Assembly (NCBI GenBank): GCA_003152995.1 | Contig: PMBR01000134.1 | Span: 1-41,325 of the forward strand | DNA: 41,325 nucleotides | Direction of reading: 5' to 3' | From: Chloroflexota bacterium | GTDB lineage: Bacteria; Chloroflexota; Limnocylindria; Limnocylindrales; CSP1-4 | Part shown: positions 2 through 18,209 of the stretch, piece after piece | Position numbering within the stretch: position 1 is the stretch's first letter | How the letters are laid out: the number at the start of each line of letters is the position of its first letter | The notes under the pieces: model-generated | What the model was told of the DNA's origin: nothing | What the model saw: the letters and a program-made list of their open reading frames with translations, nothing else | The model's database searches: none | Program-made: the position numbers and the translations under genes

Positions 2-859
2 CCGAAGCCGGCCGCGAGTCCGAAGCGGGCCGCGAGGCCCAGATCGACCTCGCGCCGCGCCAGACCGTCGCCCGAGCAGGTTGCGCGCGCCTGGGCCCGC
101 AAGCTCGATGCCAAACGCCCCGGCCTCGTCGCCTTCGTCCTCGATCGCCTCGCCGAGGCCAACGGCCGGCCGGCCTGGCAGCCCCGCCTCGACCCCGTCA
201 GCGAGCTGGTACTTACGATCCTGTCCGCCAACAGTGCCGACATCAACGCCGAGGTCGCCTTCGAGGCGCTCCGAACCGCGTATCCGTCCGGCCCGATCCT
301 CGCCGCCGCATCGGAGCCGCGCGCACTGCCGGGCTGGGGCGGCCGCGGCCTGCCGGACCTGGCCCCGCCCAATTGGTCGGCCGTGGAAGTCGCGCCACTG
401 CCCGAGCTGACAGACGTCATCCGTCCCGGCGGCCTGGCCAACCAGAAGGCGCCGCGAATCCCGGCCGCACTGAGCGCGCTGCGGGCCAACGGCGGCAGTT
501 ACTCATTGGAATTCCTGCGCGGGAAGCCGCCGCTCGAGGCGCGCAATTGGCTGGCCGCGATACCCGGCATCGGCAAGAAGACCGCCTCCGTTGTGCTGCT
601 GTTCAGCTTCGGGACGCCGCTGATGCCTGTGGACCGCCACGTCCTGCGCGTGAGCCAGCGCATCGGCCTGATCCCGCCCAAGTCGGACCCGGACCTGGCT
701 CACGACCTGTACCTGGCGATGCTGGCGCCCGAGCAGATGTACGAGGCCCACGTCTCGCTGATCACCCACGGCCGTCGAACCTGCCACGCCCAGCGCCCCG
801 ACTGCGAGCATTGCCCCGTGGCTCCGCGCTGCCGCTTCTTCGACTCCAGGGCGGAGTAG
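2..859 (+). CDS. Endonuclease III-like HhH-GPD DNA glycosylase with 4Fe-4S loop (5' end outside window)
   Basis: The frame stays open from base 2 (..DPVSELVLTILSANSADINAEVAFEALRTAYP..) into the listed ORF 383-859. HhH motif IPGIGKKTASVV, catalytic-type VDRHV, and C-x6-C-x2-C-x5-C at the C terminus. Confidence 0.9.
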   Translation, partial: PKPAASPKRAARPRSTSRRARPSPEQVARAWARKLDAKRPGLVAFVLDRLAEANGRPAWQPRLDPVSELVLTILSANSADINAEVAFEALRTAYPSGPILAAASEPRALPGWGGRGLPDLAPPNWSAVEVAPLPELTDVIRPGGLANQKAPRIPAALSALRANGGSYSLEFLRGKPPLEARNWLAAIPGIGKKTASVVLLFSFGTPLMPVDRHVLRVSQRIGLIPPKSDPDLAHDLYLAMLAPEQMYEAHVSLITHGRRTCHAQRPDCEHCPVAPRCRFFDSRAE

Positions 860-860
860 G

Positions 861-1685
861 TCAAGGGCCGACCGGGGGCTGCGATTCAGATCGTCGCCGG
901 CCGGTCGGCGCGAGGAAGCCGACAGCAAGCACGGCCGCGATCGCCGCAGGAATAGGCCACGCATATCCCGGCGGACCCAGCTGAACCGCGGACATCAGCG
1001 CCAGCCCGACTCCGATAAGCAGTGCCAGCGGCCCCGGCGATCCGCGCCAGATGAACAGCCCGAACCCGATGCACGGGAGCGCGTAGTAGAGGATGAAAGC
1101 AGGAGCCACGAAGACGATCAGACCTTCGAGGCCAGGCGGCGGGTCAGCGGCCGCCCGCGCCCACAGGTACCCGAAGAAGGCGGCAGCTCCGATCCCCCAG
1201 ACGAAGAGCCCGAAGCCGCCGATCGATCTCAGCGTCGGGGCCAGCCGCCTCAGCGGCGCCATTGCCGGGCGCACGCGGTCCTTCTTCGGTGGTCGGAGAA
1301 CCGCACGGACGCTCGGCCGCTCGAGGTAGCGGATGGGGGCCAGGAGCACGAAACCCGCCAGCCCGATCTGGACCGCGCCTATGTAGATGAGCAGCGGAGC
1401 GAAGGCGAAGACGGCGACCACCGAGACGGCTGCAAGCACGAACAGAGCCTTCAGCCACGCAATCGGCCAGGCGTAACCGCGACTCAGGCCGGCGCCGGCG
1501 ACGGTCGTGCCGAGGGCGAACCCACCGAATACCAGCAGCGTTAGCGCCGCGGCCGGGCCCATCGCCAGGGCGGCCACGGCGACGCAGATCAGACCGATCG
1601 AACCAGCGCACATCAGCAGATACGCCAGCAGCCGCACGCCGAGCGGCGGAATCGTCTGTGTCGGGGTCGGTCGATCGAGAGCCAA
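861..1685 (-). CDS. Multi-pass membrane protein of unknown function
   Basis: Minus-strand ORF with several hydrophobic segments. A TTG start at 1685 has GGAGGAGG just upstream; the longer listed ORF start (2045) would run into the neighbouring gene. Confidence 0.65.
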   Translation of the reverse strand: MALDRPTPTQTIPPLGVRLLAYLLMCAGSIGLICVAVAALAMGPAAALTLLVFGGFALGTTVAGAGLSRGYAWPIAWLKALFVLAAVSVVAVFAFAPLLIYIGAVQIGLAGFVLLAPIRYLERPSVRAVLRPPKKDRVRPAMAPLRRLAPTLRSIGGFGLFVWGIGAAAFFGYLWARAAADPPPGLEGLIVFVAPAFILYYALPCIGFGLFIWRGSPGPLALLIGVGLALMSAVQLGPPGYAWPIPAAIAAVLAVGFLAPTGRRRSESQPPVGP

Positions 1686-1863
1686 GGCGCCTCCTCCTGG
1701 TCTGCATCGGATCGTGCGCCCTGCGCCGGCCATCCAGTATCGCCCAGCCGACAGCCGGGGCGCGGCGGCCTGGAGGATCCTCACGCCGCCGCCGGCGGCC
1801 GACTCGACTCGCGCCGCCGCCCGGCGGCCGGCTGGGGCTCGCGAGGGCCGCGCCCCATGTGAA

Positions 1864-1915: not shown

Positions 1916-4900
1916 TCAGCTCGGAGTGCGCAGGCGGATGCGGATGTCGCCGCCGCCGGCAGTGTCGTCGCGCCAGCCGAGGTAGACCCTGGTCGTGGAA
2001 GCGAAGAGGGTCGGGCGGTATGAGGCGCCCGTCTGGTCGCTCCACTTCTCGGCCGGACCGCAGCGCGTGACCGAGCTCGTGCCCGAGCCGGCCTCACATT
2101 GCGCGCCCCAGATGGCGGAGGTTGAGCGGGTGTCGTCCCAGCCGACGATGACGCCGCCGTCGGCCTTGACCGCGAGGGCGAGACCGGTGGCGGGCTTGGC
2201 CGAGGAGTCGCTGACCTGGACGCTCGCGTTCCAGGTGGTGCCGTTGCGGTTGACGACCCGGACGGCGGCGTTGGTCGAGCGACCGTCGAGATAGGCCACG
2301 ACGGGCGAGTTGGCTGAAGTGAGTCCGATGCGCGGGCTCTTGTCGAGAGAGGAGGCACCGGAGTCGTCGCTGACCTTGGTGTTTGTCGACCAGGCGGTCG
2401 CGGTCGGACCGAGAGAGGCGGTGTAGATGTCGCCGCCGCCGGTCCGATTGTCCTGCCAGGCCGCCCAGGCCGTGCCGTCGGAGGCGACCGCAACGTCTGG
2501 TGCCGCCTTCACGGCCGAGGTATTGGAAGTGGTGATGTTGTAGTTGGTCGACCACGTCGTCGAGCCTGAGGGCAGGCGCGCCGAGTAGATGTTGACCTGG
2601 CTGCTGCGGGCGTCATACCAGACCGCCACCGCAATTCCGGCCGAACTCACCGAGATGCGCGGGCTGCTCTGGATCGCGGTCGCGGTGTCGCTGTTGACCT
2701 TGATGTTCGCGCTCCAGGTCGTGCCGGTGCGCTTGGCGAAGTAGATGTCGGTGTTGGTCGAGCCGTTGCGATCGTCGGCCCAGACGACGTAGAGGTTGCC
2801 CGAGCCATCGATGGCGATCGAAGGCGTGCGCTGGCCGGTCGTGCCGGTGTCGGAGTTGAGCCTGGTCTCGGCCGCCCAGACCCCGGTGGTCGGGTTGCGC
2901 GAGCTGAAGTAGATGTCGGTGTTGCCGTTTCGGCTGTCCTCCCAGACCGCGTAGACCGTGCCGTCGGAACCGACGACGAAGCTCGCGTTGTCCTGGAGAG
3001 CAGTTCCGGTGTCGGTGTTGACCTTTGCGCCGGCGGCCCAGCTGATCGAGCGAACCGAACTCTTGGGCGTCACGGTCGAAGCCGGCGGGTTGGCGGCGGC
3101 GCCCTCGCGGTTGCCGGCCTTATCGACCGCGACCGTCAGGACGTCGTAGATACCGGCACCCGAGCCGAAGGTGAGCGTGAAGCTGCCCGAAGCCGTCGCG
3201 CTGGTGCCGCCCGAGGTCCAGGCGCCGGGGGTTGCCCCGTCGCCGGTCTTGTAGCGATACCAGAACTCGACGCTCGCGAGCCCGCTGCCGTTGGTGTTGT
3301 CCGAGGCCGTGTAGGCGATCGAGATACTCGCCGCCGAACTGGTCGAAGGCGGTGCCGTGATGGTCGATGTCGGCGCGGTCGAGTCGAGAACGGTCGATGC
3401 GTCCGCAGCCGACGGTGCGGCCTCGGCGTTTGTGGCCGCGTCGGTGGCGATTGTGTAGAACTGGTATGTGCCGGCGCCTGAACTCAGCGTCACGGCGAAC
3501 GTGCCGCTGGTTGCCGAGCTGGTCGCGGTCGCGACCTTGGTCCAGGCGGACCAGGTAGTCGAGCCGGCGACTTCGTAGCGCTGGTACAGATCGACCTTGG
3601 AGAGACCCGAGCCACCGGTGTTATCGGCGGCCGTGTATGGCACCGACAGGGCCGTGGCGTTGACCACCGCCGGAAGGGCTCCGGCTGCCGAAGTGGGTGC
3701 CGTTGTGTCGAGGACGGTGAACGTGTCGGCGCTCGCGGGGGCAGCCTCGCGGTTGCCCGCAGCATCGATGCCGATCGTATAGAACTCGTAGCGGCCCGCG
3801 CCGCTCGAGAGGGTCACGCTGATCGGCGAGGTCGTCGCCGTGGTGAGCTTCGCCCAGGTGGTGAACGTCGTGCCCCCGGCGGCCTCGAAGCGCTGCCAGA
3901 GTTCGACCGAGGCGACGCCCGTGCCGCCGGTATCGGTTGCGGTGTAGGGGACAGACAGTGCCGTGGTCTTGGTGCCGCCGGCGAGAGTGCTGGCGGCCGA
4001 GACAGGTGCCGTGGTGTCGAGGACCGTGAACGCGTCGGCGACGGATGGCGCGGCCTCGCGGTTGCCCGCTGCGTCGACGGCGATCGTGTAGAACTCGTAG
4101 CGGCCGTCGCCGCTGCCCAGAGTCACCGCTATCGGCGAGGCCGTGGCGGTCGCGACCTTGGCCCAGGCGGAGAAGGTCGTGCTGCCGGCAGCTTCGAAGC
4201 GCTGCCAGAGTTCGACCGAGCTCAAGCCGGAGCCGTTGGTGTTGTCCGACGCCGTGTAGGTGACCGAGACGCTCGTGCCGGTTCGCGGCGTGGTCAGAGA
4301 CCCTGCCGCAGACGTCGGCGCGGTGGTATCGAGGACCGTGAAGGCATCGGCCGAGGCCGGGGCGGCTTCACGGCCGCCGCTTGGACTGACGCCGATCGAG
4401 TAGAACTCGCAGCGGCCGGGGCCACTGGAGAGCGTAACGCTGAAGGTGCCGCTGCTCGCGGAGCTGGTCACCGTCGCTACCTTGGCCCACGCGGACCAGG
4501 TAGTGGAACCCGCGGGCTGGCATCGCTGCCAGAGCTCGACGCTGCTGACGGCGCCTCCGGTGACCGTGTAGGGAACGCTGAGTGCGGTCGAGTGAACCGC
4601 GCGCGCCAGCGGTCCCGCGACGGTAAGCGGCACCGTGGTGTCGCGCACGGTGAATGCGTCGGCACTTGCGGGTGCGGCCTCGCGGTTGCCCACGAGATCG
4701 ATGCCGACGGTGTAGAACTCGTACCGTCCGTCGGCCGTGGTTGCCACGGTGAACGGCGAGGCCGTCCCGGTCGCCAGCAGCGCCCAGGCACCCATCGAGC
4801 CACCGGCAGGCTGGAAGCGCTGCCAGAGCTCGACGCTGGTGACGCCGGAGCCGTTGGTATCGGTCGCGGTGTAGGCCACGCTGATGCTCGACGCGGTCGT

Positions 4901-7900
4901 CGTGGCCGGCAGGGCGCCCGCCGAACTGACGGGCGGAGTGGAGTCGAGGATCGTCGAGGCATCCGCGCTCGCGGGCGCGGCCTCGGCGTTGCCTGCGACG
5001 TCGGTGCCCAGAGTGCGGAACTCGTATGACCCGTCCGAGCCCAGAGTGATCGGGATCGTCCCGCTCGCCGCCGGGTTGGTGACCGTGGCCACTGTCGTCC
5101 ACGAACCGAAGCTCGTGCCTCCGGCGGCCTTGAAGCGGTCCTGGAGCTGCAGGCTGGCCACGCCCGAGCCGTTGGCGTCGCTAGCGGTGAACGGGACGTT
5201 CTGGGCTTTGACGTTGACCCGGGCCGGCATGGCCCCGGTCGCCGTCACCGGCGCCGTCCGGTCGAGAACCGTCCAGCAGTCGGCGACAGCCGGAGCGGTC
5301 TCCCAGTTGCCGGCCTGGTCGTAGGCGGCCGTGTAGAACTCGTACCGCCCATCGTTGCTGGGCAGGGTCATCGCGATCGGCGAAGTAGTGGCGGATGTGA
5401 CGGACGTCCAGTCCGACCATGTGGTCGATCCGGCCGCCTGGAACCGGCGGTACAGGTAGACCCCTTGAAGGCCGGTCCCGTTCGCGTTGTCGCTCGCCGT
5501 GTAGGGAATGGAGATTGACCTGGACTTGACCGCGGCAGCAAGTGGCCCGGCCGTCGAGGTCGGCGCCACCGTGTCGAGGGTCAGAACCGTATCGGCCGTC
5601 GCCGGAGGAGCCTCGCGGTTGCCCGCGGCGTCGATGGCAATGCTGTAGAACTGGTATGTGCCGTCACCGGAGTCGAAGGCCAGGGTGAAGTTGCCATATG
5701 GCTGCGTATCGGCCAGCTTCCAAACCGTGAACGTCGAAGACGCGGGCGGCGCATAGCGCCACCAGAGTTCGACGTTGGCCACTCCTGACGAGGAGTCGCT
5801 GGAGTCGGCATAGAGGCTGAAGGAGTTCTTCTCCGAGGTCGCGATGGTGGCCGGCGACGTCGCCGAGGCGGGCGCCGTCGTGTCCCGGATGATCGACGCA
5901 TCGGGCAAATCCGGGGCGGCTTCTCGCGTGCCGGCGACCGTGTCGACCGCGATGGTGTAGAGCTGATAGGTTCCTTCGCCCTGGGCGAGCGGCGCCGTCA
6001 GGGTACCCGGAGCGGTGGCCGTCGCGACCTTCGTCCAGGGCCCGTTGGGCGCGAGGCGCTCCCACAACTCGACCGAGCCGGAGCCCGACGCGAATTCGGC
6101 CGTGTAAGGAACCGTCGCCGAAGCCTGGTTGGTAGCGGCGGGGGCGCCGACCACCGAAGAGCTGGGGTCGTTGCCCGTCGTGTAGTGCGTTGCCGCGCTC
6201 GTCTGGGGCGATCCCGCCTGGTAGTTGCCGGCATAGTCGCTGACCGTGGTTGCGAACTCGTAGAAGCCCTCACCTTGCGTCAGGGTCACATCCGCCGAAG
6301 TGGCCGGCGCAAAGACCATGGCCGGGATTTGCCATGAACTCCAGGCTGCGTCCTGGTTGGCGCGATACCGGCTCCAAACGTCGATCGCCTCGACGCCGGA
6401 GCCCAGTCCGTCCGAAGTCGTGAACGGGATTGTGATCGTCGATGACGAAGTGCGCGCGGCAATCGGACCCGCAGAGGATGTCGGACGCGTACTGTCACCT
6501 ATCACCACCGCGTCGGCGGTGTCCGGTGGCAACTCGCGAGCGCCGGAGGCGGATACCGCGATCGAGTAGAACTCGTATTTGCCCTCGGGTCCGATGGTGA
6601 AGGGCACCTCGTCGCCCTGGGCAGCCGACCCGACCATGGCCCAGGCCGTGAAGTTGGTCGAGCCATTGGGGGCGTACCGCTCCCAGAGCTCGTACGGCAT
6701 GTTGCTCTCGACCGACAGGTAGAGCACGCCTGGGCGTTGCCCAACCGGGGCGTAGACGACGTGCGACTCCGGAAGGGGGCCGAAATAGGTGCTCGCTTCG
6801 GGTTCAGTCGGCCATGGCTCGGCGTTCCCGATCGCGTCGACTGCGCTCGACGCGAACTGGTAGTAGCCCTCGCCCTTCCAGAAGTCGAAGGAAAGGGCGC
6901 CGCCCGGCTGGCAGTTCCCGGCCGAATTCCAATCCGGCCATGGATCGGCCTCGTGCCCGATCCATCGCCACCAGACTCCGACGCTGACGGCTCCGCTGCC
7001 TGCGTCCGAAGCCTGACATTGGATGTCATATGGTGTCGTCGACACCGTCGTGGGCAAGGCACCCACGGTGGACGTCGGTGGTGTGTGGTCGAGCAGCACC
7101 GTCGCGTCCGCGGTTGCGGGCGGATCCTCGCTGGCCCCAAGGCTGTCGACTGCGATCGTATAGAACTCGTAGCGGCCTTCGAGTTCAAGGTTCAGCGGTA
7201 TCGGCCAGGTGTCGGTCGTTAGCTTCTTGGACCATGCGCCGAACGAGTCAGAGCCTGCCGGTTCGAAGCGCTGCCACAGTTCCACCGAGCCGGTGCCGGA
7301 CGGATATGCCGCCGTGTACTGGAGCGAGATCGATCCCGAAATGACCTCGGGGTTCTGGAGTGGGAGGACCTGAGACTCGAGCACCGGGGCGGTCTGGTCC
7401 AGGATCGTCCTGGCGTCCGGCTTGGTGCCCCACCATAGGCCTTCGCAACAAGGAACCCATTCACGGTTCCCCGCCAAATCTGTACCGATCGTGTAGAAGG
7501 CGTACTCGCCGGGGCCCTGATCTAGCGAGATGGTGAACGGCGATGTGGTGCCGGACGCCACAAGCTGGTAGTCGTGGAGCGGGCCGCCCTCCCACAGCTC
7601 CACGCTCGTGATCCCGGAGCCGCCACCGTCGGACGAGGCGAAGGGCACTCGGAGCGTCGTGCTCGACACCTTTGCCGGCAGCAGGAAGGTGTTGGTGGAC
7701 GGCGCATAGCGGTCGTACATAGTTGAGGCATCAGCGACGACCGGGGCGGCCTCGTGCTGGTCGGCATTGTCAATGCCTATGCTGTAGAACTCGTACCTCC
7801 CATCCATATTCGACAGCGACATATTGAAGGATGCCGACGGAGCATTCTGGTAACAGACTTGCCACGTAGACCATGCCGCAGAGCCAAAGGCCTGGTATCT

Positions 7901-10900
7901 GCACCAGATGTCGACCTGGGAGATGCCGTTGCCGTTGTCTGTCGCGGTGTAGGACATGGGTATGAACCAGTCATCACCGTTCCACGTGGGCGGGAGCGGG
8001 TTCACCCGCGTTATCGGCTCAGTACCAGGTGGTGGGGCAAACACCACGGAGGCGTCGGCCACAGCAGGAGCCGCCTCGGCGTTGCCAGAGGCATCCACGG
8101 CTGTGGTGTAGAACTCGTAGGTGCCATCGCCCTGAGCTAGGTCAACCTGAACGGGCGACGCAACCGCGCCGATGATGGTCCAGGGCCCAAACGTCGTGTC
8201 CGGCGGGCTCTTGAATCGCTTCCACAGGTAAACCTGAGCGACTGAGTCGTTGTCTGACGCCGTGTAGGCAACGGACAGAGTGCGGCTCCCCACGTTCGCC
8301 GGCAGCGCGTTGACCGACGAGACTGGGGGCGTAGTGTCGAAGGCAACGCGTCCGATCGATCGATACTGTGTCGCCGTGTTGCCGGCAGCGTCTCGGACCT
8401 CGACGTAGATGTCGTGGTTGCCGAGTCCGGCCGAGAGGTCGAACGTCGAATGTTCCTGATACGGCAGCCAGGTTGCCTGAGCCAGCGCGTCGGCGCTCTC
8501 TGCGATCCGCATCCCAGCCAGGGGCTCGCTGGAACTCGTGACCCACACGTCGGCATGGTCCAATTGCGTCTGCACAGTGCCGCCATCGAGTGTGACTACG
8601 AAATCAGGCGGAGTGACATCGTCGGCGACCGTGATCGGGGCGACCTTTACAACTGGACCGACGGCCCCGTTGGATCCGACCAGCGTGGCATCGTAGGTGT
8701 AGACGCCAGCCGGCAGGGGACCATCCTGCTGGACCGTGGTGCCGACAGCAACGGAACTCGTCACCACTGTCCCATTACTGTCTGTGCGGTGAATGATGAT
8801 CTGGCCAGAAGTGGCGCTTGTGGCCAGGTTGACCTTTACGATGCCGCCATCAGCTGGTACCGGAGCAATCCCCAAAGAGCCGAGCGCAGCGTCATCATTC
8901 GGAGAGAGCGGATCCAACCCGCGCGCGACTTCGGATCCATCCGCCTCGCCGCCGCCGTCTGTGTCGGGGCTGGTCGGATTGGTCCCGGCTGCAAGTTCCT
9001 GGGCCAGCGTCAGGCCGTCGCCATCGGCATCGGTTGCGCCGTCAGACGGATCGAGCGGGTTGGTGCCCAGATAGGCTTCTGCCTGGTTCGTGATCCCGTC
9101 GTTGTCCGAGTCCACCCCGGCCGCGAGCGTCACGCTGGTGGACGAAGTCAACGTGAATGGTTGCGAGTGGTTGTCGGTACCCGTGGCCGTCAGGTCGACC
9201 TGATAAGTGCCAGCGAGCCCGGTTCCCCAGACATTGGCTCCGTACGTACCGTCATCTTGCGACGGATCATCGGCCATGCCATCGTCCGGGATTGCGAAAC
9301 GCCGAACCTTCCCAGAAGGGTCGGTGATAGCTGCGACAACCTGAGAATTCGTGATCGCCCTGGAATCGTCGGACACGGTACCCGTGATCCCGAATGGCAT
9401 TCCCGCGTCGCCCCGCGGAGTAACGCTGAACGACAGACCGGGTGCTCCCTGGGCCATTGAAGTGAGCTTGGCCGACTTCTTTGCGACCAGAGGCTTGGGG
9501 CCCGGAGGTGGGGCCGTCGTCCCTGACGTGACGGTAATGTCGTAAGTTGTGCGTCCTATCGTGTTGATGCCGTCGCCAGCCACCAGCACGACCGCGAGTG
9601 CGTTGTTGGTTGCGCTCGGGTCGGTCGGTCTGACGACTCGGGTGATTCCAGTCCCGCCGAGATCTGTGGTGGTGATGACGTAGTTGGTAGGGGTGCCGGC
9701 GAAGCCGTCCACGTGGCTTCCGGTCCGATCCCAGCGGATGGGGACGAGGGCAACGTGCGCGTCCTCCGCTATTGGATGGCCGGCACTAGAGATCCGCACA
9801 GACACCCAGGTATTCCCGGTCGGAACCGCGTAAAGCAGAACCTCCCCCTGCGTGTCCTCGATGGTCCGCGTCACCGTGGCAGATTGCGTGGTGAGTAGAT
9901 CGCCGTTCGACCCGCCTCGTATGTTCAAGTCCGAGAGCCCATCCTGGGACTTGTACTCACACGAGCCATTCCAACAGCTGTCGAGCAGGGCCGTAACATA
10001 GAAGTCCCGCAGCCAATCCTCGACGTTCGCCTTAGGCGGGCCGCTGGGAGGGTTGATCGCCGCGGAAACCCTTCCGAGCGGGGTGGGAGAGTTGAGCTCG
10101 GCTGCAATCGCGGCCAGGAGTTTCGCCAGCGATTGCTTGTTCGTTGAGACGATGGTTGACTTGGCAAGCCGCTCGGCAAAGTACTGGAGAATTGCGCCGG
10201 AATCGTAGCTCGTGCCCCCGACGAGCGGAGACTCCGTGTCAATGTGAGCGAGCGAGTAGCCGTTGAGCAAGTCCTGCGTCGCCTGCCAGTAAGTGCCGAA
10301 GTCCGTCCCTCTGTAGCTATCCCACTCACCGGGGCCAGTGAACAGGTCCATGGCCGCGGTTGCTGAACTTTCGATGAGAGTTCCGGAACTGACCTTGTAG
10401 TCAAGCCCAATCTGGGGCCAAGCCCAGAGCCCGTCTTGGACGATGTGCCAGAACTCATGGTCGATGGTGGTGGACCAGATATTGGCAAGCACGGGCAAGG
10501 CTGCGTCACCCGGAATCCAGGTCCTGGCCCAATCCCTGAACCATTCCTCATAGTTGGACTGTTGCAATAGGACGAGCCCCGGCGCTGGCGTGTAGCCCGA
10601 ACTGTTGCCGCAAACCTGTAAGACCGTGCCGGACAACCCATAACACAGGTCGGTCCGAATTTCGATCGTGACGGTGTCGGGCGGCGCCCATCCCGTGAAG
10701 CCCGCAGCGTTGAGGAGATCGGTGTAGTTCTGGAGAGCCGCATCGCCGCGGACCTGAATCTCCCTCGCAATCTCGGCGGCAATCACGGAGTGCTTAGTAA
10801 GGGTCTGCAGGGTCGGGCTCACAAGACCGTCCGGGTGGTATTTGACCTCGACGTGCTTGCCAGCCGCCTTGGGCAGCGTGACCCAATTCGTGTCGGCGTC

Positions 10901-12091
10901 GGCCCAATGACTCTGCCGATACCCGAAGAAGTATGTGAATGGAAGCCCCTGGGCGTGGTCGCTATAGCTGCCATTGGAATTCGAATCAGAAGGCACGGCG
11001 ATCGAATAGGCCGAGACTGCCTGCGACTTCAGGTAGTCGAGGGCATTCTGCCGGCCGTTCTGCATGCCGTAGAAGAGGGTGAATGCCGTCTGCCCGCCCG
11101 GGGCGAGTAGTCCGAGATCGAAGTCGAAGAGCGCGCCGTCGTCGAGCGGGCCCCTGCCTGCGTTGTCCTGGAATTCGCCTGAGATGAGACTCACGCCTCC
11201 GCTGGGTTGGACGATGAGTGGGTTCGCCGACGAGAACCCGTCGTTGCTCATGTTCAGAACAGTCGTATCTATCTGAGAAGCGTCGCCGTCGACGGGCCGC
11301 TTCATGGCCGTGACGTACTCGCTAAAGGGAGTGGGCGAGGCGTCCCAGTCCATGACGCGCCTATAGACGGCACGTTCGGTACTCGTTGCTGTGTTCTTGA
11401 CGGTCACGTCAATCTGGAACGTCGTCTGATTGATCGCGTGGAACGCATGCGTCACCGTGAAGAAGGGCGTAGACGTTCCCGAATCCGCAACGTCCACGAC
11501 GGAGGTCGCCGATTGTGGGTGATCGGATCCGTCGTTTTGCCAGCTCTTGACGGTCATGTTGGTTGAAGTGCCACCGTCATCCCAGCTTGCCCATCCACTC
11601 ACCGAAGTCGACGTGTCGGCGATGCCCCAGCCTTCGCACTGACACCCAGGCGCAAGCACATCCAGCGACGACGGGTTGGTGACCTGACTATCGCCGGCAA
11701 GGCCGACCCACGACCCGTTTGATTGGACGTTGATATTGCCTTCGGGATTGACCCCAAGTCGGAAGCGTGAGAAAGGCGTGTACAGGACCACGCCGTCTGG
11801 GCTCGGATCTCTTGTCGGCACATACGCGGCGGCTGCCGAAGCGTCCGTCCCCTTGGCTGCGGTGGCGGCCTTTTCTCTAGCGGTGGGGCCGGTGGTGTTG
11901 GGAGACGCGCCGAGCGTTCCGGTCTTGGTATCGGGCGACGCGCCCGGCGTTCCGGGCTTGGTGTCGGGCGACGCGCTCGGTCTTGCGCTACCAGTGTCGG
12001 GAGACGCTGCCGATGTGGGCAGGGCGACAGATCCGATCAGCAAGATGGCTGTTGTGATCGCGACCAAAGCACGGCGCGTGACGGAACCCAT
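1916..12091 (-). CDS. Giant secreted multidomain protein: signal peptide, HEXXH domain, Ca-binding type-3-like repeats, ~17 Ig-like repeats, C-terminal BNR/sialidase-like propeller
   Basis: ATG at 12091 with GGAGGAGG upstream. Signal peptide MGSVTRRALVAITTAILLIGSVALPTSAA. HEFWHIVQ motif, DSDNDGITNQAEAYLGTNPLDPSD-type motifs, repeated YEFYTIAVDAAGNREAAP units, and repeated WxDxRxGxxDIY motifs at the C terminus. Confidence 0.9.
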   Translation of the reverse strand: MGSVTRRALVAITTAILLIGSVALPTSAASPDTGSARPSASPDTKPGTPGASPDTKTGTLGASPNTTGPTAREKAATAAKGTDASAAAAYVPTRDPSPDGVVLYTPFSRFRLGVNPEGNINVQSNGSWVGLAGDSQVTNPSSLDVLAPGCQCEGWGIADTSTSVSGWASWDDGGTSTNMTVKSWQNDGSDHPQSATSVVDVADSGTSTPFFTVTHAFHAINQTTFQIDVTVKNTATSTERAVYRRVMDWDASPTPFSEYVTAMKRPVDGDASQIDTTVLNMSNDGFSSANPLIVQPSGGVSLISGEFQDNAGRGPLDDGALFDFDLGLLAPGGQTAFTLFYGMQNGRQNALDYLKSQAVSAYSIAVPSDSNSNGSYSDHAQGLPFTYFFGYRQSHWADADTNWVTLPKAAGKHVEVKYHPDGLVSPTLQTLTKHSVIAAEIAREIQVRGDAALQNYTDLLNAAGFTGWAPPDTVTIEIRTDLCYGLSGTVLQVCGNSSGYTPAPGLVLLQQSNYEEWFRDWARTWIPGDAALPVLANIWSTTIDHEFWHIVQDGLWAWPQIGLDYKVSSGTLIESSATAAMDLFTGPGEWDSYRGTDFGTYWQATQDLLNGYSLAHIDTESPLVGGTSYDSGAILQYFAERLAKSTIVSTNKQSLAKLLAAIAAELNSPTPLGRVSAAINPPSGPPKANVEDWLRDFYVTALLDSCWNGSCEYKSQDGLSDLNIRGGSNGDLLTTQSATVTRTIEDTQGEVLLYAVPTGNTWVSVRISSAGHPIAEDAHVALVPIRWDRTGSHVDGFAGTPTNYVITTTDLGGTGITRVVRPTDPSATNNALAVVLVAGDGINTIGRTTYDITVTSGTTAPPPGPKPLVAKKSAKLTSMAQGAPGLSFSVTPRGDAGMPFGITGTVSDDSRAITNSQVVAAITDPSGKVRRFAIPDDGMADDPSQDDGTYGANVWGTGLAGTYQVDLTATGTDNHSQPFTLTSSTSVTLAAGVDSDNDGITNQAEAYLGTNPLDPSDGATDADGDGLTLAQELAAGTNPTSPDTDGGGEADGSEVARGLDPLSPNDDAALGSLGIAPVPADGGIVKVNLATSATSGQIIIHRTDSNGTVVTSSVAVGTTVQQDGPLPAGVYTYDATLVGSNGAVGPVVKVAPITVADDVTPPDFVVTLDGGTVQTQLDHADVWVTSSSEPLAGMRIAESADALAQATWLPYQEHSTFDLSAGLGNHDIYVEVRDAAGNTATQYRSIGRVAFDTTPPVSSVNALPANVGSRTLSVAYTASDNDSVAQVYLWKRFKSPPDTTFGPWTIIGAVASPVQVDLAQGDGTYEFYTTAVDASGNAEAAPAVADASVVFAPPPGTEPITRVNPLPPTWNGDDWFIPMSYTATDNGNGISQVDIWCRYQAFGSAAWSTWQVCYQNAPSASFNMSLSNMDGRYEFYSIGIDNADQHEAAPVVADASTMYDRYAPSTNTFLLPAKVSSTTLRVPFASSDGGGSGITSVELWEGGPLHDYQLVASGTTSPFTISLDQGPGEYAFYTIGTDLAGNREWVPCCEGLWWGTKPDARTILDQTAPVLESQVLPLQNPEVISGSISLQYTAAYPSGTGSVELWQRFEPAGSDSFGAWSKKLTTDTWPIPLNLELEGRYEFYTIAVDSLGASEDPPATADATVLLDHTPPTSTVGALPTTVSTTPYDIQCQASDAGSGAVSVGVWWRWIGHEADPWPDWNSAGNCQPGGALSFDFWKGEGYYQFASSAVDAIGNAEPWPTEPEASTYFGPLPESHVVYAPVGQRPGVLYLSVESNMPYELWERYAPNGSTNFTAWAMVGSAAQGDEVPFTIGPEGKYEFYSIAVSASGARELPPDTADAVVIGDSTRPTSSAGPIAARTSSSTITIPFTTSDGLGSGVEAIDVWSRYRANQDAAWSSWQIPAMVFAPATSADVTLTQGEGFYEFATTVSDYAGNYQAGSPQTSAATHYTTGNDPSSSVVGAPAATNQASATVPYTAEFASGSGSVELWERLAPNGPWTKVATATAPGTLTAPLAQGEGTYQLYTIAVDTVAGTREAAPDLPDASIIRDTTAPASATSPATIATSEKNSFSLYADSSDSSSGVANVELWWRYAPPASSTFTVWKLADTQPYGNFTLAFDSGDGTYQFYSIAIDAAGNREAPPATADTVLTLDTVAPTSTAGPLAAAVKSRSISIPYTASDNANGTGLQGVYLYRRFQAAGSTTWSDWTSVTSATTSPIAMTLPSNDGRYEFYTAAYDQAGNWETAPAVADCWTVLDRTAPVTATGAMPARVNVKAQNVPFTASDANGSGVASLQLQDRFKAAGGTSFGSWTTVATVTNPAASGTIPITLGSDGSYEFRTLGTDVAGNAEAAPASADASTILDSTPPVSSAGALPATTTASSISVAYTATDTNGSGVTSVELWQRFQPAGGSMGAWALLATGTASPFTVATTADGRYEFYTVGIDLVGNREAAPASADAFTVRDTTVPLTVAGPLARAVHSTALSVPYTVTGGAVSSVELWQRCQPAGSTTWSAWAKVATVTSSASSGTFSVTLSSGPGRCEFYSIGVSPSGGREAAPASADAFTVLDTTAPTSAAGSLTTPRTGTSVSVTYTASDNTNGSGLSSVELWQRFEAAGSTTFSAWAKVATATASPIAVTLGSGDGRYEFYTIAVDAAGNREAAPSVADAFTVLDTTAPVSAASTLAGGTKTTALSVPYTATDTGGTGVASVELWQRFEAAGGTTFTTWAKLTTATTSPISVTLSSGAGRYEFYTIGIDAAGNREAAPASADTFTVLDTTAPTSAAGALPAVVNATALSVPYTAADNTGGSGLSKVDLYQRYEVAGSTTWSAWTKVATATSSATSGTFAVTLSSGAGTYQFYTIATDAATNAEAAPSAADASTVLDSTAPTSTITAPPSTSSAASISIAYTASDNTNGSGLASVEFWYRYKTGDGATPGAWTSGGTSATASGSFTLTFGSGAGIYDVLTVAVDKAGNREGAAANPPASTVTPKSSVRSISWAAGAKVNTDTGTALQDNASFVVGSDGTVYAVWEDSRNGNTDIYFSSRNPTTGVWAAETRLNSDTGTTGQRTPSIAIDGSGNLYVVWADDRNGSTNTDIYFAKRTGTTWSANIKVNSDTATAIQSSPRISVSSAGIAVAVWYDARSSQVNIYSARLPSGSTTWSTNYNITTSNTSAVKAAPDVAVASDGTAWAAWQDNRTGGGDIYTASLGPTATAWSTNTKVSDDSGASSLDKSPRIGLTSANSPVVAYLDGRSTNAAVRVVNRNGTTWNASVQVSDSSAKPATGLALAVKADGGVIVGWDDTRSTSAIWGAQCEAGSGTSSVTRCGPAEKWSDQTGASYRPTLFASTTRVYLGWRDDTAGGGDIRIRLRTPS
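3067..8335 (-). repeat. ~17 tandem in-frame repeats of ~310 bp (~103 aa) encoding Ig-like domains
   Basis: Consensus DTTAPTSAAGxLxxxxxxxxxSVPYTASDNxxGSGLxSVELWQRFxxAGSTTWSAWxKVATxTSSPIxVTLSSGxGRYEFYTIAVDAAGNREAAPxxADAFTVLD recurs in register. Confidence 0.9.
11898..12010 (-). repeat. Short tandem repeat encoding Ser/Pro/Asp/Thr-rich linker (ASPDTKxGxxG)
   Basis: ASPDTGSARPSASPDTKPGTPGASPDTKTGTLGASPNTTGP directly after the signal peptide. Confidence 0.8.
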
Positions 12092-12224
12092 TCCAATCCT
12101 CCTCCTACCGGGTCGGGCCCGGCAGCACAGCCAGACAACCAGCCCACTCTTCCTTGCCCACCGCCGGGGCATGCAACCCATAGCGGCAATGTGTACGGTC
12201 TCCTCAGGGGACCGTCGCCAGGTG

Positions 12225-12770
12225 CTAGGGGTGCAGCTTCCCCCACTCGATCTCGCCGCGGTCGGTTGCGCAGAAGCTCATCGGCGGCATGTTGCCCTCT
12301 GGGGCCGTCCACGCCAGGCGTCCGTCGACCATCAGGGGGGCCGGGCTGGCGCTGTAGCCGGTGGCCTTAGGCAGCTCGATGCCTGTCATGAACAGGATCG
12401 AGTCGCCCATGTCCCACGCGATCGGATTGTTGCTCGGGGCGTCATACGCCTCCCAGCAGCCATTTCCCAAGGGCGCCAGCGCCGCGGCAAAACCACCGTC
12501 GGTGGTCCCGGCCACCAGCAGCCAGCCCTGGTTGTCGTAGGTCCGGCCGAAGTCCTTGGACCCGCTGGCGTGCGGCAGATCGATCGTACGACCGTCCACG
12601 AGATGCGAATGAAACCCGGTCGCATCGAAATCCGTCCGGGCGACGACGCCCACGATCGTTGGCCGAAGGGGCTGTGGAGGGTCGGGATAGTTCCTGGCAG
12701 AACTGAAGCAGCCCTGAACACAGAGTGCAGCTACCGACAAGGAGACAAGAAGTCTCAGCCCTGGTCTCAT
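12225..12770 (-). CDS. Lipoprotein of unknown family, copy A
   Basis: MRPGLRLLVSLSVAALCVQGC has a lipobox-like end. Conserved core LGNGCWEAY..WDMGDSILFMTGIEL..MSFCATDRGEIEWGK is shared with copy B. An upstream GTG in frame is also possible. Confidence 0.8.
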   Translation of the reverse strand: MRPGLRLLVSLSVAALCVQGCFSSARNYPDPPQPLRPTIVGVVARTDFDATGFHSHLVDGRTIDLPHASGSKDFGRTYDNQGWLLVAGTTDGGFAAALAPLGNGCWEAYDAPSNNPIAWDMGDSILFMTGIELPKATGYSASPAPLMVDGRLAWTAPEGNMPPMSFCATDRGEIEWGKLHP

Positions 12771-12965
12771 AGGCGCCACACCGGTAACAACCCTCGTCCC
12801 TCCTCGCCCGCTGCGAACTCTGTGCTCGACGGAGTCTGCTTGCCCGGAGAACACAATCAAATACGCACAGTGACCAATCCATGCGGTGGCCGGCGACCCG
12901 TCCCGAGGCGCCCAACCTATGCTCGCCACAATCCGGGCGCTCCGGCGGGGAGACACGAAGCGCCA

Positions 12966-13040
12966 ATGACCGAGCCGTCGGGGCGGCGGATCGTCTCCGG
13001 CGTCGAGCACAGGCGCGCCAGGTTCCGTGGTTCGAGGTGA
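12966..13040 (+). pseudogene. Truncated remnant resembling the 5' end of the response-regulator gene at 13895
   Basis: CCTATGCTCGCCACAATCCGGGCGCTCCGGCGGGGAGACACGAAGCGCCAATGACCGAGCC.. aligns with CCTATACTCGCCACAAATCAGGCGCACTGGCGGGGAGGCACGAAGCTCGAATGATCGAGCC.. at the intact gene. Translation MTEPSGRRIVSG.. versus MIEPRAQRILLV.., then a stop at 13040. Confidence 0.6.
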
Positions 13041-13146
13041 GGGATGCTTCGGTCCGGGGCGCTGCTGCCGACTCGGATCTCACCTGCGGAGGTGCTGCTT
13101 CACGGGCGATATTCCGGTTCGTTATCCAGACGAACAGTCCCGGGGG

Positions 13147-13695
13147 TTACTGCAGCGGCTTGCCCCATTCGATCTCGCCCCGGTCGTTCGCACAGAAACT
13201 CATCGGGGGGGCGCCGTCGCCCTCCGGGACCGTCCATGCCTGGCGTCCGTCCACCAGGTGTGGGGCTGGGCTGACTTGATAGTCGGCGGCTTTGGAGAGT
13301 TCGATGCCGGTCATGAACAGGATCGAGTCGCCCATGTCCCAGACGATCGGATTACTGCTCGGGCCGACATACGCCTCCCAGCAGCCATTCCCGAGGGAGG
13401 AGAGTGGCGTTTCAAAACCACCACCGGCGGTCCCTGCTAGCAGGAGTGTGCCCTTGTCCTCGAGGCCTCCACCGATGAGCTTGAAGGTACCGTTCTGCGG
13501 AAGATCGATCACTCGACCGTCGACAAGGTGCGCGTGATATCCGGACGCATCTTGCGTTGTCTCAGCGATGACACCGACGGTCGTTGGTTGGAGTGGCAGT
13601 GGTGGGTTGGGGTAATGCCTGGCAAACAGCGCGCAGCCCTGCACGGCCAGCGCCAATGTCAACATAGCGGCCGTGAGTCTCAGGATCGGTCTCAT
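13147..13695 (-). CDS. Lipoprotein of unknown family, copy B (paralogue of 12225-12770)
   Basis: MRPILRLTAAMLTLALAVQGC lipobox-like end, with the same conserved core as copy A. Confidence 0.8.
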   Translation of the reverse strand: MRPILRLTAAMLTLALAVQGCALFARHYPNPPLPLQPTTVGVIAETTQDASGYHAHLVDGRVIDLPQNGTFKLIGGGLEDKGTLLLAGTAGGGFETPLSSLGNGCWEAYVGPSSNPIVWDMGDSILFMTGIELSKAADYQVSPAPHLVDGRQAWTVPEGDGAPPMSFCANDRGEIEWGKPLQ

Positions 13696-13894
13696 GGGCG
13701 CCACCACGGCCAAAGCAATCCCTCTTCTCCTCTCACGTGCTCCGCGCATGCCGGAGTTTGCTTGTCGAACGCATGCCGTCAAATACGCAAGTTGACCTGC
13801 AGCGCGGCGACTCGGGGACACCGACCCGCCACTCCACTCCCCCACCTATACTCGCCACAAATCAGGCGCACTGGCGGGGAGGCACGAAGCTCGA

Positions 13895-14602
13895 ATGATC
13901 GAGCCACGGGCACAACGGATCCTGCTCGTCGACGACGACCCACATCTTCGCGTCGTGCTGGCCGAGCAGCTCCGCGACGACGGCTTCGAGGTTGCCACGG
14001 CGCGCGACGGGCAAGAGGCGCTACGCCGCCTGGATGCCGGCTGGCCGGATCTGATCCTGCTGGACCTGATGATGCCGCGCATCGACGGCCTCGCTTTGGC
14101 GCGCCAGATCAAGGCCGAGGCTGACCTGCCGATCATCGTCCTATCGGCCATCGACACGGCCGACAGCAAAGCCCATCTGCTCAACGAGGTCGCGGAGGAC
14201 TACGTCGCCAAGCCGTACCACTACCCCGAGTTGCGGGCCCGGATCCAGCGCGTTCTGCGACGGTTGGGCGACCGCATCCCACGCCAGTCGCTGGTGCTCG
14301 GGCCAAACCTCACGCTCGACCTTCACCGCCGTGCGGCGACGGTGGCCGGAACCGAAGTCCAGCTCACGCCGACCGAATCGCGGCTGCTCCACGCCCTGGC
14401 AGCCAATCTCGGCGAGATCGTCACGACGGACACGCTGCTTGCCCGCGGCTGGGCCGAAACCGAGGAGGCCGACGCGTCGTACGTCTGGGTTTCGATGCGC
14501 CGGCTGCGACAGAAGGTCGAGGTCGATCCGGGCAAGCCGGTCCATCTGCTGACCGTTCGAGGCGTCGGATACCGCCTGGTCGCGAGCCGTGACGACGCCT
14601 GA
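13895..14602 (+). CDS. OmpR/PhoB-family response regulator
   Basis: Receiver domain (RILLVDDDPHLR, LILLDLMMPRIDG, AKPYHYPEL) plus winged-helix C terminus (LTPTESRLLHALAANLGEIVTTDTLLARGW..VSMRRLRQKVEVDP..VRGVGYRL). Confidence 0.95.
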   Translation: MIEPRAQRILLVDDDPHLRVVLAEQLRDDGFEVATARDGQEALRRLDAGWPDLILLDLMMPRIDGLALARQIKAEADLPIIVLSAIDTADSKAHLLNEVAEDYVAKPYHYPELRARIQRVLRRLGDRIPRQSLVLGPNLTLDLHRRAATVAGTEVQLTPTESRLLHALAANLGEIVTTDTLLARGWAETEEADASYVWVSMRRLRQKVEVDPGKPVHLLTVRGVGYRLVASRDDA

Positions 14603-16139
14603 ACAGCCGGCGGCCGAAGCCGACCGAACTGTCGAAGCCGACCGAACGGCCGAAGCCGACCGAACGGCCGAAGCCGACCGAACGGCCGAAGCCGCGGCCG
14701 AAGGCCCGGCGCAAGAGCCGGCCCGAGGTCGCGGCTTCGAACTGCCATTTCGCGTCCTGCTCACGATCGGCATCATGGTCGCGGCGGTCTTGCCGCTCGG
14801 GGTCTTCGGCAGCCTCGAAATCGCGGCAGGTTGGGAGAGCGACGAGCGGGCCGTTGTCAGCCTCTTTGCCCTGGCGATCGCCGGGGCCGGCTTCTTCGGG
14901 CTGCTGGCCGCATATGTCGTCGTGGCCAGCCTGACCGTGCCGCTCCGCCGCATCACAACTGCCGTGGAGCGCGTCGCCGCCGGCGAGTCCAGCCCGCCGA
15001 TCCACCTCACCGGCGACGACGAGCTGGCGCGCCTGGCGGAGAGTCACAACCGCATCGCCGCGGACCGGCAGCGCCGCAACGCCGAGCTTGCCGCACTCCT
15101 GGCCGCGATCGCGGCCTACGCCCCGAGCCAGGGAGTGGAGCCGCTCGTAGCCCAGGTCGACCGCGACGCCCGCCAGATCTACGGCCTGATCGACTGCCAG
15201 GTGCGACTCGGCAGCGCCGACGCAATCGCCCTCGAGGAGAAGGTCCCCGGCGACCCATGCCCGGTTCGCGCCGACATCCGTGCCGGGGCCGAAACCCTGG
15301 GCGTGCTCACCGGCCACGTGCCGGCGACCCGCAACTGGGAGCGCGCCGACCAGGACCTCCTCGAACTCTTCGCCAGCGAAGTCGGAGTGGCCCTCCGCAA
15401 CGCCGAGTTGTTCGGCCGCATCGAGAGCCAGAACGCTCAGCTGCGCGAACTCGACGCCGCCAAGGACGAGTTCCTGCGCGGCGTCAGCCACAACCTGCAG
15501 ACGCCGCTGACCAGCATCCGCGCCTACGTGGAGCAACTCCGATCCTCCACCACGGACGCGGAGACCGACCGCCGCCTGGCGATCGTGGCGGAGCAGTCGA
15601 GCCGTCTCACGCGGCTCGTCCGCCAGCTGCTGACCGTCACGCGCCTCGAGGCCGGAGTGCTGCGCGCCGAACCCGAGGTGATCGCCCTGGCGCCCCGCAT
15701 CCGGCGCGCCTGGGAAGCGCTCAACGCGACCGGTGCCACCTTTGAGTTGACCGACGATGCCCGCGGCTGGTTGGCAGTGGCTGACCCGGATCAGCTCGAC
15801 CAGGTGCTGTGGGCGCTCCTGGACAACGCCGTGAAATACGGCGGAAGCGAGGGCAAAGTCGAGGTGGCCGTTCGCGTCGACGACACGCTCGATCGGATCG
15901 AGGTCACGATCGCCGACGACGGCCCCGGGATCTGCGAAGTCGACCGAGCGCGGCTCTTCGCCCGCTTCACGCGGGGCGCGGGCCAGCCCAGCGGGGAGGG
16001 CACCGGACTCGGACTGTACGTCTCGCGCCAGCTCCTGCGGGCGATGGGCGGCGAACTCCGGTTGGAGCCGGCCCAGGCCGACCGCGGCGCTGCCTTTACT
16101 CTTTCGCTGCCGGGGGAACCGCCCGCCGACGAGGGCTGA
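14589..16139 (+). CDS. Membrane sensor histidine kinase (HAMP, GAF-like, HisKA, HATPase)
   Basis: GTG start overlaps the RR stop by 14 bp. Two TM segments, H-box VSHNLQTPLTSIR, N/G boxes (LLDNAVKYGG, ADDGPGI, GEGTGLGLYVSRQLL). Confidence 0.93.
   Translation: MTTPEQPAAEADRTVEADRTAEADRTAEADRTAEAAAEGPAQEPARGRGFELPFRVLLTIGIMVAAVLPLGVFGSLEIAAGWESDERAVVSLFALAIAGAGFFGLLAAYVVVASLTVPLRRITTAVERVAAGESSPPIHLTGDDELARLAESHNRIAADRQRRNAELAALLAAIAAYAPSQGVEPLVAQVDRDARQIYGLIDCQVRLGSADAIALEEKVPGDPCPVRADIRAGAETLGVLTGHVPATRNWERADQDLLELFASEVGVALRNAELFGRIESQNAQLRELDAAKDEFLRGVSHNLQTPLTSIRAYVEQLRSSTTDAETDRRLAIVAEQSSRLTRLVRQLLTVTRLEAGVLRAEPEVIALAPRIRRAWEALNATGATFELTDDARGWLAVADPDQLDQVLWALLDNAVKYGGSEGKVEVAVRVDDTLDRIEVTIADDGPGICEVDRARLFARFTRGAGQPSGEGTGLGLYVSRQLLRAMGGELRLEPAQADRGAAFTLSLPGEPPADEG
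14616..14687 (+). repeat. 4 x 18-bp tandem repeat (GAAGCCGACCGAACGGCC) inside the kinase N terminus
   Basis: Direct reading; encodes EADRTV-EADRTA-EADRTA-EADRTA. Confidence 0.95.
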
Positions 16140-17304: not shown

Positions 17305-18120
17305 TCAACGCCGGGGTTGCGTGGGCAGTTGCCGCCGTACCTGGACCACTCGCTCCATATCGAGATCGGCCACGACCACGCCCGGGCCGTCCGGCGCCTG
17401 CGCGGTCACGACGCCCCACGGATCGACGACCATGCTGCGGCCGTGGGTCGGCACTCCGCCGCCGATGCCGCACTGCGCCGGCGCGATGACGAAGGCGCCG
17501 TTCTCGATCGCGCGGGCGCGCAGCAGCACTTCCCAGTGGTCCCGACCCGTAGCCTCGGTGAAGTTGGCGGGCACTGCCAGCACCACCGCCCCCGCGGCCG
17601 TCATCTGACGGTAGAGCTCCGGAAAGCGGAGATCGAAGCAGATGCTGAGGCCGATTCTCACGTCGGCCTCCTGGGCGACGCCCTGCATCACCGCAACGAC
17701 ACCTTCGCTTCCGGGGGTTGTGCGTCCCGACTCTCGGTCCGATGGACCGTCATCGATCGAAACGTCGAACAGATGCTGCTTTCGGTATGTCGCGGAAATC
17801 TGGCCGGCCGGGTCGAGCAGGACCGACGTGTTGTACGGCCGCTGCGGATCGGCCGAGCGTTCCGCGAGGCTGCCGAGGAGGATCCACGTGTCGAGCGATC
17901 TGGCCAAGTCGGCGAAGGGCTCGGTCGTCGGGCCGGGCAACTCCGCGGCGGATTCCCGCCACCCGGCCGCGGGACCTCGATACAGGAACATCTCCGGCAA
18001 CGCGACCAGCTGCGGGCGCAGCTCGCCGGCCTCCATTACCAGTGCGATCGCCCGCTCAACGTTCGCGGCCACGTCCTGATCGGCTGCGAGCTGGATCAGC
18101 GCTACTCGTAGGCGGCTCAT
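17305..18120 (-). CDS. Carbon-nitrogen hydrolase (nitrilase superfamily)
   Basis: Glu-Lys-Cys landmarks LVALPEMFLY, YRKQHLFD, LSICFDLRFPELYR. Confidence 0.92.
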   Translation of the reverse strand: MSRLRVALIQLAADQDVAANVERAIALVMEAGELRPQLVALPEMFLYRGPAAGWRESAAELPGPTTEPFADLARSLDTWILLGSLAERSADPQRPYNTSVLLDPAGQISATYRKQHLFDVSIDDGPSDRESGRTTPGSEGVVAVMQGVAQEADVRIGLSICFDLRFPELYRQMTAAGAVVLAVPANFTEATGRDHWEVLLRARAIENGAFVIAPAQCGIGGGVPTHGRSMVVDPWGVVTAQAPDGPGVVVADLDMERVVQVRRQLPTQPRR

Positions 18121-18209
18121 TGGTGCTCCACTCCGCGATCGCGGTGTCGTGTCGCCGGCCGATGCCGGTCTGCCGGGGTCGATGGTACGCTGCCCTTGAG
18201 GAGGCTTCC

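Follow-up and report, generated by a model that had tools for sequence, protein, structure and literature searches.

The region between nth and a two-component operon of an uncultured soil Chloroflexi bacterium carries two tandem lipoprotein genes, LipA (copy A) and LipB (copy B). Upstream of LipB stands the divergent response-regulator gene (RR), while upstream of LipA there is only a short open reading frame that resembles the RR start. This arrangement raises the question of how much DNA the two copies have in common, and whether, as the original prediction proposed, the lipoprotein gene was duplicated together with the whole divergent promoter and the first codons of RR. We addressed it within the window (the whole 41,325-nt stretch of DNA analyzed here) and by comparison with relatives, which are Chloroflexi MAGs, mostly from fens. 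The features of the locus are listed in Table 1.

Table 1. Positions of the features discussed in the text, numbered from the first nucleotide of the window.
Feature	Position	Strand	Basis or remark
nth (endonuclease III), conserved left anchor	2..856	plus	named from C-terminal Fe-S motif
Membrane-protein gene (approximate ends), directly divergent from RR in sisters	861..1740	minus	homology to L042/L044
~3,400-aa secreted repeat protein with TSP3 repeats, between membrane-protein gene and LipA	1916..12181	minus	ORF
LipA (copy A), 181-aa lipoprotein	12225..12770	minus	translation; identity to LipB
Candidate LipA promoter TTGATT-N17-AGACTC	12832..12860	minus	comparison with copy B only
Copy A relic of RR promoter/leader: -10 TATGCT 12918-12923, SD GGCGGGGAG	12911..12965	plus	identity to B; profile match
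RR stub ORF MTEPSGRRIVSGVEHRRARFRGSR	12966..13040	plus	identity to RR start
Junction of the two units	13007..13146	none	no detectable homology to RR, HK or DNA downstream of LipA
LipB (copy B), 182-aa lipoprotein	13147..13695	minus	translation
Candidate LipB promoter TTGACG-N17-AAACTC	13754..13782	minus	comparison with copy A
Native RR promoter/leader, CCCCACCTATACTCG..GGCGGGGAGGCACGAAGC	13840..13894	plus	CCTATACTC upstream of all 18 RR orthologs of the genus
RR, OmpR/PhoB-type response regulator (Response_reg + Trans_reg_C)	13895..14602	plus	Pfam
HK, histidine kinase (HAMP, HisKA, HATPase_c)	14589..16139	plus	Pfam; after RR in relatives

Homology of the two units extends from the lipoprotein genes into the RR start

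LipA and LipB are paralogs, as had been predicted, with 65% amino acid and 71.5% nucleotide identity over the coding sequence (394 of 551 alignment columns identical, z 35 against dinucleotide shuffles). With a dN of 0.26 and a dS of 0.79, dN/dS is about 0.32; both genes are therefore under purifying selection and have been kept as proteins. By eye, each N-terminus has a hydrophobic stretch followed by LCVQGC in LipA or LAVQGC in LipB, read in LipA as a putative signal peptide with a lipobox-like VQG-C. A structure model of LipB from the single sequence was poor, while the model from the alignment (pLDDT 81) was mostly beta and had no PDB match at E<=0.001.

Local alignment revealed collinear, head-to-tail homology without a break between 12211-13006 in unit A and 13134-13935 in unit B. 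Identity drops to background at both ends, which lie at about 12211/13134 on the left and about 12992-13006/13921-13935 on the right, decay limiting the resolution. The upstream DNA is homologous as well as the coding sequence: the intergenic regions are identical in 142 of 212 columns including 30 gaps (67%, z 14 against dinucleotide shuffles), the lipoprotein-proximal part in 97 of 127 ungapped columns, and the RR leader in 45 of 55 positions, free of gaps. Over the 96 nt that span the RR -10, Shine-Dalgarno sequence and start, 72 positions are identical in ungapped comparison (null 28 +/- 4; maximum 44 of 2000), and 27 of the first 41 nt of RR coding sequence are identical, a match that 0 of 5000 shuffles equaled. 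Past about 13006 the identity is that of background (6/30 for 13011-13040). The homology thus reaches 9-14 codons into RR and then ends; it is not confined to the lipoprotein coding part, and the motifs quoted in the original prediction are found in the sequence as written.

Each unit has a similarly placed candidate promoter directed toward its lipoprotein gene. The box common to both, TTGAYN-N17-ARACTC, read from just the two aligned copies and giving no match in a sigma-70 consensus scan, lies at a similar distance in each, its -10 preceding the lipoprotein start by about 60 nt. Alignment, shuffle tests and a profile match described below support the view that the entire divergent promoter was part of the duplicated unit, along with the beginning of RR. 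The further proposal that both lipoproteins inherited the same control region holds at the level of sequence, although no regulator site is identifiable in it; across the genus, no conserved operator was found upstream of the RR -10, only the RR -10, SD and start being conserved.

The native RR leader and the stub at copy A

RR contains a receiver domain (Response_reg, E 4e-29) and a winged-helix DNA-binding domain (Trans_reg_C, E 3e-21), and orthologs more than 80% identical are present in 18 of the 20 other genus genomes searched. They have in common a compact leader, CCTATACTC...GGGGAG...ATG, regardless of the DNA further upstream; CCTATACTC precedes 18 of 18 orthologs, at a longer distance in one (G007). 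Because this core persists throughout the genus irrespective of the upstream sequence, the RR leader of copy B is, on comparative grounds, the native one. The first 15 RR codons (13895-13939) match those of G002 (L045) at every nucleotide, while RR as a whole is closer to those of G003 and G014, and the RR start may possibly be a recombination patch. Near the N-terminus of HK, an 18-bp tandem repeat (14611-14700) encodes EADRTA-type repeats that likely form a length-variable linker.

When the RR leader was modeled as a profile from the relatives and copy B, leaving out copy A, the profile matched the stub at 12911-12992 (E 3.1e-7); the stub is therefore a piece of the start of the neighboring RR and not a chance likeness. 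Among the loci examined the profile found no other stub, with only true RRs otherwise scoring below E 0.1, and neither the remaining lipoprotein loci nor the remaining nth-RR gaps contained an RR stub. The predicted open reading frame MTEPSGRRIVSGVEHRRARFRGSR, ending at 13040, is present, and only its codons 1-9, at most about 14, derive from RR.

The -10 of the stub reads TATGCT where the genus has TATACT. The stub leader matches the clade majority in 45 of 53 columns, compared with 47/55 and 48/56 for the real leaders of G009 and G014, whereas codons 1-9 match in 18 of 26, compared with 21-26 of 26-27 in real RRs. The difference in retention between leader and codons does not reach significance (Fisher p 0.14); relative to a neutral expectation of 0.66-0.70, our rough estimate from half the 4-fold distance, the leader gives p 0.002-0.01. 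That the stub promoter and leader fit the genus better than its coding part is a possible hint of retained function. If the promoter were live, its transcript would run toward the lipB 3' end and be antisense to that gene. We think it quite unlikely that the stub is in this sense not dead, with its RR promoter and leader producing an antisense RNA to lipB (or else a second RR transcript with a long leader), so that the duplication would have rewired the pair, or with its leader kept as a shared lipoprotein operator. Searches for structured RNA in the stub gave no Rfam match and a fold z of +0.43, a sigma-70 consensus scan gave no match, and two terminator-like matches were found in 1.9 kb where 0.9 were expected.

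Origin of the second unit

In the sisters the gene order is nth, membrane-protein gene, RR-HK, and in L042 and L044 the gap holds the membrane gene divergent from RR. The window retains nth and the membrane gene, with 74-75% identity to L042/L044 over 33-1647 and homology to about 1647; here about 12 kb separate the membrane gene from the RR promoter and hold the ~3,400-aa repeat protein, LipA, the stub and LipB. No lipoprotein occurs at the corresponding sister locus, and the repeat protein was not found in the relatives' loci examined. Its ORF includes many copies of an ~85-aa 'VELWQRF..' module, has a GC content below that of the flanks, and contains three 33-bp direct repeats (11893-11991) in an N-terminal SPDTK/R-rich part.

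The best explanation, and in our judgment probably the correct one, is a local tandem duplication that broke inside RR. In an ancestor of this Chloroflexi lineage, a lipoprotein gene would have stood divergent from the conserved RR-HK operon of OmpR type. Tandem duplication of about 0.93 kb, ending just past the lipoprotein stop codon on one side and about 9-14 codons into RR on the other, would then have copied the lipoprotein gene, the control region shared by the divergent pair, and the beginning of RR. Unit B, which adjoins RR, would still drive the intact RR-HK, while the distal unit A would have kept a functional lipoprotein gene and control region as its RR stub decayed. We infer a single duplication event with its breakpoint inside RR, after which both copies would be expressed from the inherited promoter.

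In the family tree LipA and LipB form a sister pair (support 81/84). A tree of the 84-nt leader places the stub in a clade with B and its sisters with weak support (82/63), the pairing of A with B receiving 49/0. Identity at 4-fold sites is 0.50 (33/66) between LipA and LipB, compared with 0.66-0.71 for nth/HK between this genome and L042/L044. At face value, on 66 sites, this is suggestive of a duplication that predates the split from sisters lacking it, which would mean that the sisters lost it, that the whole segment was imported, or that the lipoproteins evolved faster. A single-copy ortholog of LipA/B at the locus was found in none of the 107 genomes of the family, for which loss or incomplete MAGs may account.

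The apparent age also fits a xenologous unit A, in which an insertion brought a lipoprotein gene and RR-start segment of a related species to lie beside a native divergent pair. The slot is indeed variable among species, the nth-RR gap being 76-1446 bp in relatives and about 13 kb here; GC over 7-14 kb is 0.60-0.65 compared with about 0.69 in the flanks; and the stub is equally close to G005, G003 and B. We nevertheless consider this origin rather unlikely, since the two lipoproteins pair with each other in the family tree, the leader tree shows no separation between the stub and B, and no donor was found.

A second alternative leads to an identical end state: the duplication would have covered the entire lipoprotein-RR(-HK) unit, and a later deletion would have removed all but the start of the second RR-HK. 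The age of the pair would leave time for such a deletion, yet two events are required, the intermediate occurs in none of the genomes examined, and 13007-13146 contains no remnant of RR or HK above shuffles. We regard this course as unlikely. The junction also showed no homology to the large ORF or to sequence downstream of LipA. The prediction that the duplication itself broke inside RR is the simplest reading, the 140 nt past the stub containing no detectable RR or HK remnant; alternatively, the full RR may have been duplicated and then deleted, or decay may hide a break anywhere up to about 13133. Chance or convergent likeness of GC-rich promoter regions, in keeping with the GC-rich setting and with an own-genome search in which the stub found no further copy and only a spurious 20-nt match inside a sensor-kinase gene, is hardly credible and is refuted by the shuffle z-scores (14 intergenic, 35 coding) and the profile E of 3e-7.

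The lipoprotein family and the divergent slot

LipA and LipB belong to an undescribed family, with no named counterpart in the libraries searched: neither Pfam, NCBIfam nor PDB gave a match. Its motifs (alignment A1) are GCWEAW..AWDMGDSILF..G.ELPKA, and several members have a lipobox-like N-terminus, the cysteine being absent from one (G016:C96). The family is scattered, with 21 loci, 9 of them strong, in 12 of the 107 genomes of the taxonomic family; a scan of the genome contigs with LipB revealed no relatives.

Members recur upstream of the orthologous RR. In G008 the divergent slot holds two in tandem (G008:C132:17178-17708 and 17880-18143; L051), with no RR stub between them. In G013 (L054) a 332-aa membrane-anchored protein occupies it, at 1180 to 182 nt upstream of the RR start; the C-terminal half of this protein is one distant family member (hhalign 90%, E 1.4e-6). 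The closest relative of LipA/B in the family tree is not the G008 slot member; it is a G013:C151 gene located away from RR, and family members therefore seem to have moved into the slot on more than one occasion. This repeated occupancy suggests a possible functional link of the lipoprotein family to the two-component operon and makes such a regulatory link a testable idea.

The duplication is well supported and ordinary in kind, and the searches tried found no literature on the same configuration. In an uncultured lineage, it clearly illustrates the copying of a gene along with its entire divergent control region, by which an orphan regulator promoter was left behind. The locus also shows that the stretch from nth to the conserved two-component operon is a variable slot, which holds members of the undescribed family in at least three species, and it is this family and its recurrence in the slot that might interest specialists.

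Like other OmpR/PhoB-family regulators with a divergent neighbor, RR combines Response_reg and Trans_reg_C domains, is followed by HK and has a divergent partner upstream; it differs in that no operator is conserved upstream of the RR -10 and in that the partner varies among species of one genus. In comparison with ordinary tandem duplications with illegitimate breakpoints, the locus likewise shows copies arranged head to tail, a flanking gene present once intact and once truncated, and later divergence and decay. Nothing differs in kind; the truncated part is here a promoter and start codon, and the distal copy carries an orphan promoter aimed at the 3' end of the proximal gene.
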